Shown here: in pieces, positions 11,235 through 36,063 of the stretch
Layout: each line of letters starts with the position of its first letter
How positions within the stretch are numbered: the stretch's first letter is position 1
DNA from: Alphaproteobacteria bacterium
Lineage (GTDB): Bacteria > Pseudomonadota > Alphaproteobacteria > SMXS01
Assembly: GCA_028284945.1 (NCBI GenBank)
Contig: JANQQJ010000024.1
Span: forward strand, 248,001 to 312,000
DNA length: 64,000 bases
Reading direction: 5' to 3'
Position numbers and translations under genes: made by a program
Notes under the pieces: model-generated
Told to the model about the DNA's origin: nothing
The model's database searches: none
What the model saw: the letters and a program-made list of their open reading frames with translations, nothing else

Positions 11235-12278
11235 CTAATCCGCGTCGTCTCCGGCGGGTTTCCGCCGCTTGATCGCCGCCAGGCGTTTTTGTTCTTCACT
11301 GGCGTTATAGGCCTGAACCATCCGGGTGACGAGCCGGTGGCGAACCACATCCCGCTCGCCGAACCGGACAAACGAGACGCCCTCAACATTACCCAGAACA
11401 TCGAACGCGTCTTGCAGGCCAGACCGGCTGCCCATCGGTAGATCAACTTGGGTGAGGTCGCCGCAGACCGCCATGCGCGAGTTTTCGCCCAGCCGGGTCA
11501 GGAACATCTTCATCTGCATCGGCGTCGTATTTTGCGCCTCATCGAGAATAACGAATGCGTTGGACAGGGTCCGTCCGCGCATAAAGCCCAACGGGGCGAC
11601 CTCGATATCGCCGTTCGCCATGCCTTTGACCACCTGGTCCCCGGGCTGCATGTCGTGCAGCGCATCATAGAGCGGGCGCAAATAGGGATCGATCTTGTCA
11701 CGCATATCGCCGGGTAAAAAGCCGATCCGCTCACCTGCTTCAACGGCCGGACGCGACAGAATGAGCCGGTCGACTGCACCCTGCTGTAACATTTCCACCG
11801 CAACCGCGACGGCCAAATAGGTTTTACCGGTACCGGCAGGGCCGCTGGCGAACACCAATTCGCTGTCACGCAACCGCGCGACATATTCGGCCTGACGCGG
11901 TGACCGCGGAGAAATCACCCGCTTCCTGGTTCGGATGACCCCGGCCAGATCGCCGCTTGCCGACGCGCCATCCGTTTGACTTTCGGCCATGCGCACCGCC
12001 CCATCAACATCGCCGGCATTCACCGTCAGTCCATTGCGTAACCGGCCATAAAGCGCGCGCAGGACAGCCTTTGCCGTTTCCGCAGCATCCGCCGGCCCAC
12101 TGACCGACACCCGGTTGCCGCGCGACGACAACGTGACGCCCAGCCGTTCTTCAATCTGCGCCAAGTTGCGATCAAATTCACCGAACAGTTCCGTCAAATG
12201 AGTGTTGTCGTCAAAATCGATAACGGACGTCGCCTCGGACTGCGGTTGTGCAGGCGCGGGGCGTTGCTGCTTATTCAA
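11235..12278 (-). CDS. phoH: PhoH-like ATPase
   Basis: A 347-residue P-loop protein. A KH-like N-terminal region (about 20-100) precedes the PhoH ATPase domain: Walker A GPAGTGKT at 146-153, Walker B FVILDEAQNT near 240, and the following MQMKMFLTRLGENSRM segment. PhoH proteins are probable RNA helicase/ribonuclease-like ATPases; their linkage with YbeY supports an RNA role. Start ATG at 12278, 12 bp after the miaB stop. The C-terminus is basic. Confidence 0.95.
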   Translation of the reverse strand: MNKQQRPAPAQPQSEATSVIDFDDNTHLTELFGEFDRNLAQIEERLGVTLSSRGNRVSVSGPADAAETAKAVLRALYGRLRNGLTVNAGDVDGAVRMAESQTDGASASGDLAGVIRTRKRVISPRSPRQAEYVARLRDSELVFASGPAGTGKTYLAVAVAVEMLQQGAVDRLILSRPAVEAGERIGFLPGDMRDKIDPYLRPLYDALHDMQPGDQVVKGMANGDIEVAPLGFMRGRTLSNAFVILDEAQNTTPMQMKMFLTRLGENSRMAVCGDLTQVDLPMGSRSGLQDAFDVLGNVEGVSFVRFGERDVVRHRLVTRMVQAYNASEEQKRLAAIKRRKPAGDDAD

Positions 12279-12290
12279 TGGGAACCCCTG

Positions 12291-13673
12291 TCATTGCGCA
12301 GCGGCCCGGGTCTGTTGGTCTGCGATCCGCCCGGACAGGCTGTTGGGTAAAATACTGGTAATCTCGACCGGGAAAATGCGGCCGATAAACGCCTCGGCAT
12401 TATCGACACCGTCGACGGAAACCGCCTGCATGAACGGGCTCCGCCCAGCGATCTGTCCGGCATGCCTGCCGCGACGCTCAAACAAAACCGGCATGGTTTC
12501 GCCCAGGCACGACGCGTTGAACGCGTTTTGTTGGCGCGACAGTTCGGCCTGCAGAGTTGCAAGCCGGACCGATTTCACGTCTTCAGGGACCTGGTCGGCG
12601 TGATCGGCCGCCGGCGTGCCGGGCCGAGGGCTGTATTTAAAGGAATAGGCCATCACGAAGCCGACCGTCCGGACCAAGTCCATCGTCGCTTCGAAATCCT
12701 CGTCCGTCTCCCCGGGGAAGCCGACGATAAAATCGCTCGATAGCGCGAGATCAGGCCGGGCCTCGCGCAGCCGGGCAACGATATCCCGATATTCAGCAGC
12801 GGTATGGCGGCGGTTCATCGCTTGCAGAATCCTATCAGAGCCGCTTTGTACCGGCAGATGAAGGAACGGCATGATTTCAGGCACATCACGGTGCGCGGCA
12901 ATCAACTCATCATCAACGTCACGCGGGTGGGACGTGGTGTAACGAATCCGTTCCAGCCCCTCAATCGCGGCCAAGTGGCGCATCAGCGCACCCAATCCAG
13001 CCGGGCTACCGCCATCGTCACCGTGATAGGCGTTCACGTTCTGGCCCAGCAAGGTGATGTCGACAGCCCCTTGTTCAACAAGACGGCGGGCTTCGGCCAA
13101 CACGTCGCCGACGGGCCGGGAATATTCCGCGCCCCTGGTATAGGGCACCACGCAAAATGTGCAGAACTTGTCGCAGCCTTCCTGAATGGTCAGAAATGCA
13201 CTGGAGCCTTGCGGCGCGGATTCTTGTGGCAGGTGATCGAATTTCTCGTCGGTCGCCAGATCGACCGCAACAACACGCGAGCGGCCGGTTTCGGCCAGGT
13301 CACGCTCTGCCTTTGCAATAAGGGTCGGAAGTTCCTGATAGGTCTGCGGCCCGAATACCAGGTCGATCGCCGGGGCGCGGCGCATCATTTCCGCCCCCTG
13401 TGCCTGCGCAACACAGCCGCCAATGGCCACCAGCATCTGTTCCCCGTCCAGCGCTTTGCGCTCTTTCAGGGCACGCAGGCGGCCGACTTCTGAATAGACC
13501 TTTTCAGCCGCTTTCTCGCGAATATGGCAGGTGTTCAGAATCACCAGATCAGCCTCTTCCGGGCTGTCCGCTGTCTGATAGCCGATTGGCGCCAACACGT
13601 CGGCCATGCGCGCCGAATCATAGACGTTCATCTGGCAGCCATAGGTCTTTATATGGACGCGCTTCGCACTCAT
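12291..13673 (-). CDS. miaB: tRNA-2-methylthio-N6-dimethylallyladenosine synthase
   Basis: A 460-residue radical-SAM methylthiotransferase that modifies A37 of tRNAs reading UNN codons. It has the N-terminal UPF0004 domain with Cys13 and Cys49 as first ligands of the second cluster, the radical-SAM motif [15 protein letters not shown], and a C-terminal TRAM domain (from about 385, ending near [15 protein letters not shown]). Length and order are standard. It heads the miaB-phoH-ybeY-corC-lnt run. ATG start at 13673. Confidence 0.96.
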
Positions 13674-13757
13674 CTCAAAAAGCTCTCAACAAAAGGCGGC
13701 GCACCGTATCAATGGCGGATGACAAGTCAAGCAGAGCCCCAGCTGCAGCATGATTTC

Positions 13758-14555
13758 TCAAGCGGCTTTTTCCTCAAGGCCATAGCCGGCATTCAGCTTT
13801 TCCAGCTCACGCGCGATCTCACCATGGCAATGCGCGCTCATGTCCTTGCGCCCCTTCATGGTCTCCAGCGTCACCGGCTCGTGAAACGTGACGACAGCAG
13901 TCAGCCGTCCCATGGTCATGAATTCCCAAAGATGCGGGCCCAGTTCCATATCGCCATACCAACCGACATAGGGCCGGAAATGGCGGTTAAGCGGCATATT
14001 GTTGATCCGTGTATAGGCGATGGAGATTGGTTGAACCGTCAACGGCTTAGCCCCCTGCCAGCGTTCGGCAACGGCAAACAAGCTGCTCTTGAAGGGCAGG
14101 ACGCGGGCGCCATCGGAACTTGTTCCTTCGGGAAATAGAATCAGGCTGTCGCCCCGGTCCAGCCGTTCGATCATCTGTTCCAGATGGGCGCTGGACCGAG
14201 CGCGGTTTTCCCGGTCGATGAAGATGGTGCGGCGCAGTTTCGAGAGCCAGCCAAACAGGCGCCACTCTGCAAGATCTGCCCGGGCGACGAATGATGAGCC
14301 CAAGAGACCGCCCAGCACAAAGATGTCCAGCCACGAAATATGGTTGGACACGTAAAGCACCGACTTGTCACGCGAGGGTATCCCGCGGGACACGATCTTG
14401 ACGCCAATAATGCGATTTCCGATTCGAAAGAACCAATAGGGCAAGAACTCGGCAATTTTGCCGCCGGCCAGGCTCAGAAAGGGCTGGATCGGAATAATCA
14501 CCATTAAACACATCGCAAGAGCGATGGCGCTTAGTCCGGCCCGGACCATATTCAA
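13758..14555 (-). CDS. plsC: 1-acyl-sn-glycerol-3-phosphate acyltransferase family protein
   Basis: A 265-residue membrane acyltransferase of the PlsC family. An N-terminal membrane segment (about 5-35) precedes the catalytic NHISWLD motif (H72, D77 of HX4D) and the acceptor-binding FPEGTSSDG motif near residue 142. Such enzymes acylate lysophosphatidate in phospholipid synthesis; some members are OlsA, which completes ornithine lipids. As an OlsB-type gene lies at 31644, an OlsA role is possible but cannot be told from sequence alone. It lies between fur and miaB. Confidence 0.88.
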   Translation of the reverse strand: MNMVRAGLSAIALAMCLMVIIPIQPFLSLAGGKIAEFLPYWFFRIGNRIIGVKIVSRGIPSRDKSVLYVSNHISWLDIFVLGGLLGSSFVARADLAEWRLFGWLSKLRRTIFIDRENRARSSAHLEQMIERLDRGDSLILFPEGTSSDGARVLPFKSSLFAVAERWQGAKPLTVQPISIAYTRINNMPLNRHFRPYVGWYGDMELGPHLWEFMTMGRLTAVVTFHEPVTLETMKGRKDMSAHCHGEIARELEKLNAGYGLEEKAA

Positions 14556-33950: not shown

Positions 33951-34111
33951 TAAGCACTCACCCGCGACATTTCCATCGGTGCTTGGCTGATGAGGGGGGC
34001 GACGATAGGAACCGCAACCTGAGAATTTCTATTTTACTTCAAACTGTTAAATAAATCCGAACAATTCTTAACGTGCATGGCCGGCCGGTTTTTTGTACTC
34101 TGCAGCCCGTC

Positions 34112-34210
34112 AAGTCGACGAAACGGCAAACCGTCCGGAAGGACGGGACGCAAAGCCACCGGCCCCAATCCGGATCAACCGGATGGGTAGCGGGGCTACC
34201 GAAAGGACTT
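34112..34210 (+). ncRNA. Cyclic-di-GMP-I (GEMM-I) riboswitch aptamer
   Basis: The conserved core is unmistakable. ACGGCAAACC is followed by a hairpin CCGTCC/GGACGG with a GGAA tetraloop, then GGGACGCAAAGCC, a second hairpin arm ending in GGATGGG, and TAGCGGGGCTACCG. This matches the GEMM-I consensus (GGCAAACC, GGGACGCAAAGCC, GGTAGCGGGGNTACCG). The P1 stem is AAGTC (34112-34116) with GACTT (34206-34210). The aptamer is on the plus strand and ends 182 nt before the ATPase gene at 34393. A GNRA-type loop facing the second hairpin fits the known tetraloop-receptor contact. No strong sigma-70 promoter was recognised upstream, and no T-run follows. Confidence 0.93.
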
Positions 34211-34213
34211 AGG

Positions 34214-34360
34214 ATGGCGACGGCCAACGCCAGACGGATGGGTAATTCCGGCCCCGAAAGCAACCGGGGTTCAGCCCAATTTCCTCTCGATCATGCCAAT
34301 GCGGTTTCTGCCTTTCGCGCTTTGACGGGCTTAGGTCAGCAGCGGGTGTTGCTGATCTGA
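34214..34360 (+). CDS. Possible 48-residue leader ORF in the riboswitch expression platform
   Basis: ATG at 34214 opens a 48-codon frame ending at TGA 34360. Its putative ribosome-binding site AAAGGA lies 6 nt upstream and overlaps the 3' arm of riboswitch P1, so ligand binding could hide it. The product, MATANARRMGNSGP onward to LGQQRVLLI, resembles nothing I recognise, and codon bias is weak. It may be a translated leader, a real small protein, or chance. Confidence 0.3.
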   Translation: MATANARRMGNSGPESNRGSAQFPLDHANAVSAFRALTGLGQQRVLLI

Positions 34361-34381
34361 TTAAAGGACGCTGACCAGATC
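34334..34381 (+). promoter_or_regulatory. Competing stems upstream of the ATPase ribosome-binding site
   Basis: Three perfect stems use overlapping bases: TCAGCA/TGCTGA (34336-34341 with 34350-34355), GGTCAGC/GCTGACC (34334-34340 with 34370-34376) and GATCTG/CAGATC (34354-34359 with 34376-34381). They cannot all form together. The last sits directly before GGAGCAGG, the ribosome-binding site of the gene at 34393. This suggests a structured expression platform; its link to the aptamer 120 nt upstream is inference. Confidence 0.5.
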
Positions 34382-34392
34382 GGAGCAGGAAA

Positions 34393-36063
34393 ATGAGGCT
34401 TGGGGAATTTCTCGTCGCACGCAATGTCGTGACAGAAGACAATGTGTTCGACGCCTTGAAACTTCAGCGCGAACACGGCGGACAGCTTGGTGAACACCTG
34501 GTCAATATGGGTGTGATCACCAGTGAAGAACTTGCCGACGCGCTGGCCTATTTCCCCGAACCGCCACGGTCTATCGATGATACCGGCCTAAACCCGACAC
34601 AGTTGCTGGGCCATACGCTGAAGCTGATTCATACATTGGGCCTGGAGACCGCCAGCGAGCTGGAGCGCGCCATCGCGCTGCCCGGTCAAGTCTGTGCTGA
34701 ACTGGTTGAGGCCATCCGTGAACGCGAGCTGGTTCAGATGATGGGGTCAGCGGCGCTGACCGGCCAATCAAGCAGCAACGAAATCCGCTATGGGTTGACC
34801 GCACGGGGGCGCGACTGGGCGATGGAGGCGCTGGAGAGCAACCAATATATCGGCCCGGCCCCGGTGCCGTTCGACAAATGGATCGAACAGATCAAAAAAC
34901 AGTCGATCCTGACCGATCCGATCAACCCGCGCAGCCTGGCAGAATCGCTTTCTCATCTCGTGCTGCCGGACGGCTTTATCGACGAGCTGGGGCCGGCGGT
35001 GAATTCCGGTCGGTCGGCACTGATTTACGGCCCCCCGGGCAATGGTAAGACCACCATTGCTGAAGGCGTTGCCGAGGCGTTCAAGAGCCTGGTCTTTATT
35101 CCCCATGCGGTCGAAGTCGATGGGCAGATCATCAAGGTCTATGACGAGGCCCTTCACCGCCGCCGCGACGAAAACCCCGAGGCCGAAACAGCCAGGACAC
35201 TGGTCAAGCGGCGGACAGAAACCCTCGATGGCCGCTGGGTCCCCTGTTATCGGCCAGTGGTTGTCGCGGGCGGTGAGTTAACGCTCGACATGCTGAACTT
35301 CGTCTATAACGAAACCGCAAAGTTCTATGAAGCGCCACTGCATGTTAAAGCGATCAACGGCGTCTTCCTGATCGATGACTTTGGCCGTCAACAGGTGGAA
35401 CCGTCGGACCTTTTGAACCGCTGGATTATTCCGCTTGAAAAGCGCGTCGATTATCTGGCGCTGGTCACCGGGCAAACCATTCAGGTGCCGTTCGACGAAT
35501 TACTGATCTTCTCAACCAACCTGGTTCCTGACGACCTGATGGACGACGCCTTCCTGCGCCGGATTCCCTACAAGATCGAAATCGGCACCCCGTCGCGTGA
35601 GATGTATGAGGCAATTTTCCGGGCCGTCTGCCGCGGCAAAAAGGTCGATCTGCCGGAAGATCTGATCCCGTTCATTTACGACGTCTATTACGACCACAAC
35701 GGCAAACTGCCGTCGAATTACCAGCCAGGCTTCATCATCGACCGGGTGATCGACATCTGCCGCTATCACGGCGTCGAGACCGAGCTGCGCCGCGACTTCG
35801 TGCTCTATGCGCTGGGCAATCTGAGCTCGGATGCCGATGATGCAAGACGGCTCGCGGCACTCTCAAATGAATATCGGGATCAGCACCCTTTGCCAACCAA
35901 CCCGCCCGCGCCCGAAGCATCAGCGCCCGAGACACCGGTCTCCGAAACAGGGGCCAATGGCGCCGCCGTCAATGGCTCACCGCTGGAGCGTGAGCCGGCG
36001 GTAGGAGAGGGCTTCAGCGATGGCGCTGCGCCCCACGGTTTCGAGCCCCGCGAGGTCGCTTAA
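34393..36063 (+). CDS. AAA+ ATPase with N-terminal MshEN-like repeats
   Basis: A 556-residue protein under the c-di-GMP-I riboswitch. Residues 2-25 (RLGEFLVARN onward to ALKLQ) and 31-54 (QLGEHLVNMG onward) both fit the spacing of the 24-residue RLGxx(LVI)2xxG(LVI)2xxxxLxxxLxxQ signature of MshEN c-di-GMP-binding domains, with substitutions (Asn for Gly in the first, Gln for Arg and Phe for Gln in the second). A winged-helix-like region follows (about 60-150), then an AAA+ domain: Walker A GPPGNGKT at 213-220, Walker B LIDDF at 326-330, sensor FSTN near 374 and FLRRIPYKI near 387. The Pro/Glu-rich tail from about 495 runs antisense over the end of comM. GGAGCAGG precedes the ATG. Substrate unknown. 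Confidence 0.88.
   Translation: MRLGEFLVARNVVTEDNVFDALKLQREHGGQLGEHLVNMGVITSEELADALAYFPEPPRSIDDTGLNPTQLLGHTLKLIHTLGLETASELERAIALPGQVCAELVEAIRERELVQMMGSAALTGQSSSNEIRYGLTARGRDWAMEALESNQYIGPAPVPFDKWIEQIKKQSILTDPINPRSLAESLSHLVLPDGFIDELGPAVNSGRSALIYGPPGNGKTTIAEGVAEAFKSLVFIPHAVEVDGQIIKVYDEALHRRRDENPEAETARTLVKRRTETLDGRWVPCYRPVVVAGGELTLDMLNFVYNETAKFYEAPLHVKAINGVFLIDDFGRQQVEPSDLLNRWIIPLEKRVDYLALVTGQTIQVPFDELLIFSTNLVPDDLMDDAFLRRIPYKIEIGTPSREMYEAIFRAVCRGKKVDLPEDLIPFIYDVYYDHNGKLPSNYQPGFIIDRVIDICRYHGVETELRRDFVLYALGNLSSDADDARRLAALSNEYRDQHPLPTNPPAPEASAPETPVSETGANGAAVNGSPLEREPAVGEGFSDGAAPHGFEPREVA

Follow-up and report, generated by a model that had tools for sequence, protein, structure and literature searches.

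Can a single second messenger set both how much of an ATPase a cell makes and what that ATPase then does? The question is raised by a locus within a 64,000-nucleotide stretch of alphaproteobacterial DNA (contig JANQQJ010000024.1, positions 248,001 to 312,000; hereafter the window). There, a predicted riboswitch for cyclic di-GMP (c-di-GMP) precedes a gene for an AAA+ ATPase, and this ATPase carries a predicted c-di-GMP-binding domain of the MshEN type at its N-terminus. With an aptamer in front of the gene and a predicted sensor inside its product, one signal may therefore set both amount and action. A preliminary description of the window had proposed as much, namely that the messenger acts on the RNA and on the protein. 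We find that the riboswitch and the MshEN-type AAA+ ATPase are real and that the two-level reading is a fair hypothesis: the aptamer and the domain lie on one apparent unit, but a 48-codon open reading frame (ORF) separates the aptamer from the ATPase start.

We regard it as an even call that the riboswitch controls a unit of leader ORF and ATPase through translation of the leader, and that the N-terminus of the ATPase reads the same messenger. According to this proposal, a class-I c-di-GMP riboswitch, probably copied within the genome from that of a lapG-like gene, would govern a short unit made of the 48-codon leader and a solitary ATPase, the latter combining an MshEN-type sensor with an AAA+ core of a kind that, unfused, belongs to Tad/Flp pilus clusters. 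At high c-di-GMP, the aptamer and its P1 stem would close, the Shine-Dalgarno sequence of the leader would be covered and the leader would go untranslated. Synthesis of the ATPase would then drop with the leader through translational coupling or polarity, and ATPase already present would use its N-terminus to sense this messenger and would work in trans, on either the Tad pilus or another surface structure. The most specific version of this idea, that one messenger sets amount and activity of a Tad-pilus-type ATPase by way of a lapG-derived riboswitch and leader and a half-degenerate, perhaps one-sided MshEN gate, is tentative, and we are inclined to doubt it. Every part of the locus is known in kind; what is unusual is how they are joined, in that an AAA+ core of a Tad-locus family carries an MshEN-type sensor and the unit that encodes it also has a riboswitch for c-di-GMP. 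The chief gains of the analysis are that Tad-locus family of the core and the leader ORF between aptamer and ATPase. The features of the locus are listed below.

34112-34210 (+), core 34116-34204: class-I c-di-GMP riboswitch aptamer with P1 (RF03167 and RF01051; P1 by sequence)
34202-34207 (+): Shine-Dalgarno-like sequence AAAGGA, on the aptamer's 3' edge and in overlap with the 3' strand of P1 at 34206-34210 (by sequence)
34214-34360 (+): 48-codon leader ORF, with its ATG at the conserved distance from the aptamer and in a frame other than that of the ATPase
34331-34360 (+): 13-bp hairpin with which the leader ORF ends, a candidate part of a coupling platform (RNA fold)
34393-36063 (+): MshEN, winged-helix-like and AAA+ ATPase, 556 amino acids (ORF and profile matches)
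34396-34554 (+): MshEN-type domain, residues 2-54, predicted to bind c-di-GMP (NCBIfam NF053729)
34588-34842 (+): winged-helix-like stretch, about residues 66-150 (low-confidence model, weak Foldseek matches)
34990-35832 (+): AAA+ module, about residues 200-480 (Pfam AAA, invariant columns, positions of motifs)

The aptamer and the ATPase

Across the whole 64 kb, the sole Rfam match at or above its gathering score was found at 34116-34204 (+). The claim of a GEMM-I aptamer was borne out by the search that had been suggested along with it, in which the canonical class-I model RF01051 scored 73.5 bits (cut-off 35); the c-di-GMP-I-GGC model RF03167 scored 64 bits over the same positions (E = 8.3e-13, cut-off 59). 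The P1 stem had been read as AAGTC (34112-34116) paired with GACTT (34206-34210). It is legible in the sequence and was the top stem in our script search, but it is absent from the single-sequence minimum-energy fold of 34108-34410. P1-like pairing across the aptamer loci also barely exceeded chance, being reached by 11 of 300 shuffles, and both results count against a closing P1.

In the Vc2 aptamer the ligand-contacting bases G20 and A47 are 27 nt apart, and the same distance is found in Vc1 and Bc1 (PMC4744006, PMC11218506; for these, as for most papers cited below, we draw on part of the text). Under both placements of this distance, the window aptamer has G and A at the equivalent positions; as to C92 of Vc2, a CC lies in the ACCGA stretch in which its equivalent is expected, the exact base not being pinned. 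At one position of the alignment, the G of the RF03167 consensus (ACGCGAAGCC) is replaced by A in the window (ACGCAAAGCC), and it is presumably to this base that the name of the GGC variant refers. We placed the RNA under RF01051 because this G, by our assumption the variant-defining base, is absent from the window. With the canonical A kept and G and A at the contact positions, the RNA is most simply a c-di-GMP sensor, as far as a ligand can be predicted from sequence. Its likeness to known c-di-GMP-I (GEMM-I) riboswitches covers the whole aptamer. It differs from them by an aptamer edge that holds the Shine-Dalgarno sequence of a leader, and by the MshEN-AAA+ gene downstream, a pairing unique to its own genome among the loci that we scanned.

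The N-terminus of the ATPase had been called MshEN-like, and rightly so: the curated c-di-GMP-motif model NF053729 matched residues 2-52 (57.6 bits, cut-off 38), and residues 2-54 form two 24-residue units around a 5-residue spacer, the published MshEN spacing. Further along the protein, Pfam AAA matched residues 210-244 (23.2 bits, cut-off 21.2), and we could assign Walker A (GPPGNGKT, 213-220), Walker B (VFLIDDFG, about 324-331) and the motifs FSTN (373-376) and LRRI (388-391), under what we take to be their usual AAA+ names. The AAA+ module of the preliminary description therefore stands. Its winged helix, at about residues 66-150, is a lead, suggested by the order of helices and strands in a low-confidence predicted model and by Foldseek matches of which the best were MarR-type (E = 0.0024 at best). 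Each of the two structure predictions of the ATPase had a mean pLDDT of 52, with an unusable AAA part, and this poor model gave no Foldseek match at E = 0.001 or better.

The same description had likened the module to MoxR or ClpX. NorQ, of the MoxR class, was matched by the poor model at E = 0.016, and kinship with MoxR is therefore neither shown nor excluded; the same applies to ClpX. Neither name occurred among the 15 Pfam matches or the best 25 of the 32 NCBIfam matches of the ATPase, and the best sequence matches with solved structures were classic AAA proteins (E = 1.7e-10), mostly across Walker A. It was instead in Tad loci that relatives without MshEN were found (see below). An identity as the anti-phage ATPase IetA/IteA was rejected: the best three PADLOC models reached 30-34 bits, and the NCBIfam model scored 34.9 against an equivalog cut-off of 510.

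Ligand contacts of the MshEN-type domain

Is the sensor intact? The MshEN motif was defined for MshE (PMC5013675), and the window protein deviates from it at four positions, with N in place of G at 11, V in place of L at 18, Q in place of R at 31 and F in place of Q at 54. Motif I thus keeps R2 and Q25, and in motif II Q31 and F54 stand in place of Arg and Gln. We aligned 35 copies of the ATPase family, of which 28, the window protein included, carry MshEN; this count may be one too low, for the copy in G344 has two stop codons in its match and no N-terminus in the alignment. Among the 28, Q25 is invariant, and G40 (26), G33 (24), L47 (24) and G4 (21) are widely kept. The remaining contacts are less well kept. 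Arg at the first position of motif I occurs in 5 members (4 others have K) and at that of motif II in 10, with 18 having lost it, and the terminal, ligand-contacting Gln of motif II occurs in none. Because the second half-site lacks this Gln in 28 of 28 members, c-di-GMP binding by the ATPase is uncertain; judged from the residues that are kept, it is plausible.

The strongest competing explanation is control at the level of RNA only, with an N-terminal domain that has lost c-di-GMP binding and serves as a docking module, as GSPII-A does in PilF. We think this a serious contender, if somewhat short of probable. It draws on the losses in motif II and on experiments with PilF: measurable binding by GSPII-A required Gln in both motifs and the Arg of motif II to be restored, together with a truncation (PMC12002112), and a double Gln mutant of GSPII-B did not bind (PMC11731258). 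The GSPII-B data can, however, be turned the other way, since this domain, in which K and L replace both Arg, binds c-di-GMP at 6 nM, and its single mutant Q190E still binds near 500 nM (PMC11731258). Also at odds with a domain that has lost its ligand are the score of 57.6 bits against a curated c-di-GMP-motif model and the conservation of Q25, G40, G33 and L47.

Compared with the known MshEN/GSPII domains of MshE, PilF (GSPII-B) and NfrB, the window domain has the same 53-residue double motif with exact spacing and a model score above cut-off. What sets it apart is its fusion partner, a winged-helix-like stretch with an AAA+ core where the known domains have a PilT/GspE-type ATPase or a glycosyltransferase, and its membership of a family without the Gln of motif II.

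The leader, the direction of the switch and the origin of the pairing

The ATG at the conserved distance from the aptamer (34214) opens the leader and not the ATPase, whose own ATG (34393) lies in another frame; the aptamer ends 188 nt ahead of the ATPase, a single gene on the same strand. This distance was judged from a survey that found 44 aptamer places (39 plus 5 new ones), of which we inspected 35 loci (30 of the 39, and the 5). An ATG lay 9 to 13 nt after the aptamer end in 26 of the 35, which include related genomes and are thus not independent. Shuffled flanks gave a mean of 3.1 and a maximum of 9 (2000 shuffles), and each of eight other downstream 5-nt windows held an ATG in only 1 to 8 of the 35 loci.

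The leader had a codon score of +0.10 per codon, compared with -0.28 and -0.31 for the other frames; equally long pieces of the ATPase gene averaged 0.38, the lowest being 0.05. As judged by this score, the leader would be weakly coding, which tells against a mechanism that depends on its translation. No ORF resembling it was found in the other fetched loci. Short first ORFs also lie behind other aptamers, with 26 codons before ParA in L053, 49 codons in L096 and 56 in L048.

In RNA folding, the hairpin that ends the leader had z = -1.91, with 8 of 200 shuffles equally or more stable, and the fold of aptamer plus leader had z = -2.94 (1 of 100 shuffles). In the modeled folds, the ATPase start seems able to pair with part of the leader. 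Against such a platform, the downstream hairpins folded without the aptamer were mildly unusual (z of -1.4 to -1.9), and support from covariation or conservation is lacking because the aptamer-ATPase pairing occurs in one genome only. An intrinsic terminator was rejected as the expression platform, as there was no terminator-like site between 33900 and 34450. The overlap of the Shine-Dalgarno sequence with P1, the ATG spacing, the folding and this absence of a terminator led us to propose that ligand would shut off the leader, with the ATPase falling along with it.

Might a duplicate of the lapG riboswitch simply have landed here, to govern the leader alone or nothing useful, with the ATPase expressed from its own promoter? 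The preliminary description had proposed co-occurrence of aptamer and MshEN among homologues as a test, and outside this genome the test failed. The aptamer was absent from all 32 other distinct ATPase loci of the class (scanned with about 1.5 kb of flank, contig permitting) and from all 11 Chloroflexota loci (up to 5 kb of flank, contig permitting), in a scan that was run in part at gathering scores and left out second copies in G007 and G008. The four closest orthologues of the ATPase (61-64%) were likewise without it. Such a narrow distribution weakens the case for a functional pairing and suits a passenger, as do the missing conserved platform between leader and ATPase and the close likeness of the aptamer to that of the lapG-like gene of its own genome (85.7% identity over 91 nt). 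We nevertheless consider a passenger unlikely: the aptamer scores are high, the Shine-Dalgarno and ATG spacing has been kept, and the aptamer sits 188 nt ahead of, and on the same strand as, a single gene that itself bears a c-di-GMP-type domain.

The aptamer of the lapG-like gene was the closest of 27 others compared (7 of the 35 loci were left out). Since the closest match is in its own genome, the simplest account is that the aptamer was duplicated within the lineage, and a copy made there from the lapG-like gene's aptamer is likely on this sequence comparison. The lapG-like gene's aptamer is itself nearly as similar to one of G002 (0.65) as to that of the window (0.66), and because of this near tie copying is not proven. 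No other species of the genus was among the results of the ATPase and aptamer searches.

The sign of the switch is a further point on which our proposal could fail. In Clostridioides difficile (C. difficile), c-di-GMP lowers ZmpI, a surface-protein-cleaving protease encoded behind the class-I riboswitch Cdi-1-12, whereas type IV pilus genes, which follow the class-II riboswitch Cdi-2-4, are raised by it (PMC6200980, in part). Riboswitches of both signs thus exist for this ligand, and the 188 nt between aptamer and ATPase leave space for a long platform. An on switch, or transcriptional control by antitermination or Rho in place of a hidden leader ribosome site, would still surprise us, given the absence of an intrinsic terminator-like site and the ATG spacing in 26 of 35 loci, which fits control of initiation. 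ZmpI and Cdi-1-12 are also the nearest regulatory parallel in the literature covered, and the parallel is to the riboswitch of the lapG-like gene, which the window aptamer most resembles, not to the ATPase; the protease family and the bacteria are other ones.

Relatives in Tad/Flp loci and aptamers elsewhere

What might the ATPase act on? A search that took in 116 relatives and then 385 genomes of the window's class returned a match at E = 1e-50 or better in 25 of the 385. Among relatives without MshEN, 9 of 16 inspected loci lay inside Tad/Flp pilus clusters. These comprised all four genomes of the class family f23 (in one, G031, the core gene follows what reads as a prepilin-peptidase-like gene) and all five of the plasmid loci that we inspected (75 records had a match). 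Three of the five plasmid loci, from Rhizobium, are identically arranged, with the core gene behind CpaF and two T2SSF-family genes; those of B. pyrrocinia and P. terrae share an arrangement in which it lies between prepilin peptidase and CpaB. Over about 410 amino acids the core is 43% identical to that of the R. etli p42e protein (WP_011428170.1) and 35% to that of B. pyrrocinia (WP_342312444.1). What the window ATPase has in common with these proteins is the AAA+ core; they are MshEN-less and encoded inside a pilus cluster, whereas the window gene is solitary and preceded by a riboswitch.

Some observations do not sit easily with a role at the pilus. The MshEN-less loci outside Tad clusters are G310, G312b and five from Chloroflexota (the last judged from gene lists), and CpaF, TadB and TadC were absent from all 28 MshEN-bearing loci within the fetched 4.8-20 kb. 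Counting in favor of the proposal, there is a Tad locus in the window's own genome, on contig C23, with CpaF, TadB, TadC, CpaB, CpaC and a short TadG stretch found by tblastn, and a prepilin peptidase and a CpaE-like gene recognized by reading. The window gene is outside this cluster, and tblastn found no match to the ATPase core there; the only two strong matches in the genome are the window gene itself and a paralogue on C37, both bearing MshEN. A homologue of the genome's Tad TPR protein does occur near three MshEN-bearing loci (G004b, G005b, G007b). Because MshEN-bearing loci have no CpaF, TadB or TadC nearby, action of the ATPase at the Tad pilus is inferred from its relatives. If it is correct, the class would have, in its unlinked ATPase genes that bear MshEN, a widespread and undescribed route by which c-di-GMP reaches Tad pili; in any case the family provides an input for c-di-GMP that can be put to the test and that may extend to these pili. 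In the part of the literature covered, an MshEN domain on this Tad-locus AAA+ family is not described.

The ATPase could instead serve a family of repeat proteins of about 1700 amino acids with a Sec-type signal and NATN-like repeats. Such genes adjoin the ATPase orthologue at four loci:

L076, 3523-8565 (-): repeat protein gene
L078, 4006-9135 (-): repeat protein gene
L080, 3963-9065 (-): repeat protein gene
L082, 8411-13525 (+): repeat protein gene

In all four sister genomes that have the orthologue (G002, G004, G007, G008), the gene follows it on the same strand. We nonetheless doubt that these proteins, and not Tad pili, are what the ATPase serves: the two matches in the window's own genome lie on C12 and C32 and do not adjoin the ATPase, and MshEN-less relatives lie within Tad loci in both Alpha- and Betaproteobacteria. 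The L076 copy had no Pfam or NCBIfam match. G008 alone contains 12 matches to the repeat protein.

As to the aptamers, the preliminary description had called GEMM-I atypical of Alphaproteobacteria. It is uncommon, RF03167 being found in 25 of 289 genomes of the class at E = 0.001 (18 above cut-off), but not foreign, with RF01051 found in 9 of 10 genomes of the order (8 above cut-off). At the window aptamer, Rfam retains RF03167 among overlapping clan members, despite the higher RF01051 score and the missing variant base, and class-wide counts of the variant that are based on RF03167 may include canonical aptamers.

At eight of the 11 aptamer places in the order, the gene that follows is a lapG-like protease gene, a c-di-GMP-linked kind of gene:

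L002, 1501-2340 (G000:C10:61580); also L051, L070, L065, L067, L095, L098 and L100: lapG-like gene (Peptidase_C93) behind an aptamer

In seven of the eight, the lapG-like start codon lies 10-12 nt behind the aptamer; in L100 the Peptidase_C93 ORF begins well downstream, in a frame other than that of the start codon near the aptamer. An RNA route for c-di-GMP control of LapG is possible. The survey as a whole points to a regulon in which lapG-like and ParA-like genes stand behind c-di-GMP riboswitches, the distance to the start codon often being fixed.

In aptamers of the cGAMP variant, the position equivalent to G20 is A, and in the window it is G. Another dinucleotide as ligand, be it 3',3'-cGAMP or the one, still unnamed, of an RF03167-type variant, is thereby improbable: it can appeal to RF03167 being the match kept, and is opposed by that G, by the RF01051 score, by the A in ACGCAAAGCC and by the genes behind other aptamers, which are lapG-like or, in one case just below the Pfam cut-off, PilZ-like.

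Several minor observations were also made. The window ATPase is flanked by an MFS-type gene on one side and a comM-like gene on the other, both named by reading. The second MshEN-AAA+ paralogue of this genome, at L075 9259-10797 (-), is near a PAS-HisKA-receiver hybrid kinase gene at 12034-14175 (+), and the neighbors in sister genomes look similar by reading. In Chloroflexota loci L003, L006, L008 and L011 the MshEN-less core is near genes for pyruvate kinase and for glycerophosphodiester-phosphodiesterase-like and lipid-kinase-like proteins, and L010 is without a visible pyruvate kinase; 6S RNA was found in 8 of the 11 Chloroflexota loci (L003, L006-L011, L013). The window's own genome encodes three GGDEF proteins. 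Aptamers of class I precede ParA-like ATPase genes in several further genomes of the class, at L046, L047, L049, L053, L055, L056, L058, L063 and L072, seven of them recognized by BLAST, with L049 and L063 in addition. Finally, L071 624-1200 (G203:C238) has two minus-strand aptamers about 0.4 kb apart, and the PilZ-like gene (21.7 bits, cut-off 22.5) lies between them, directly behind the upstream one.

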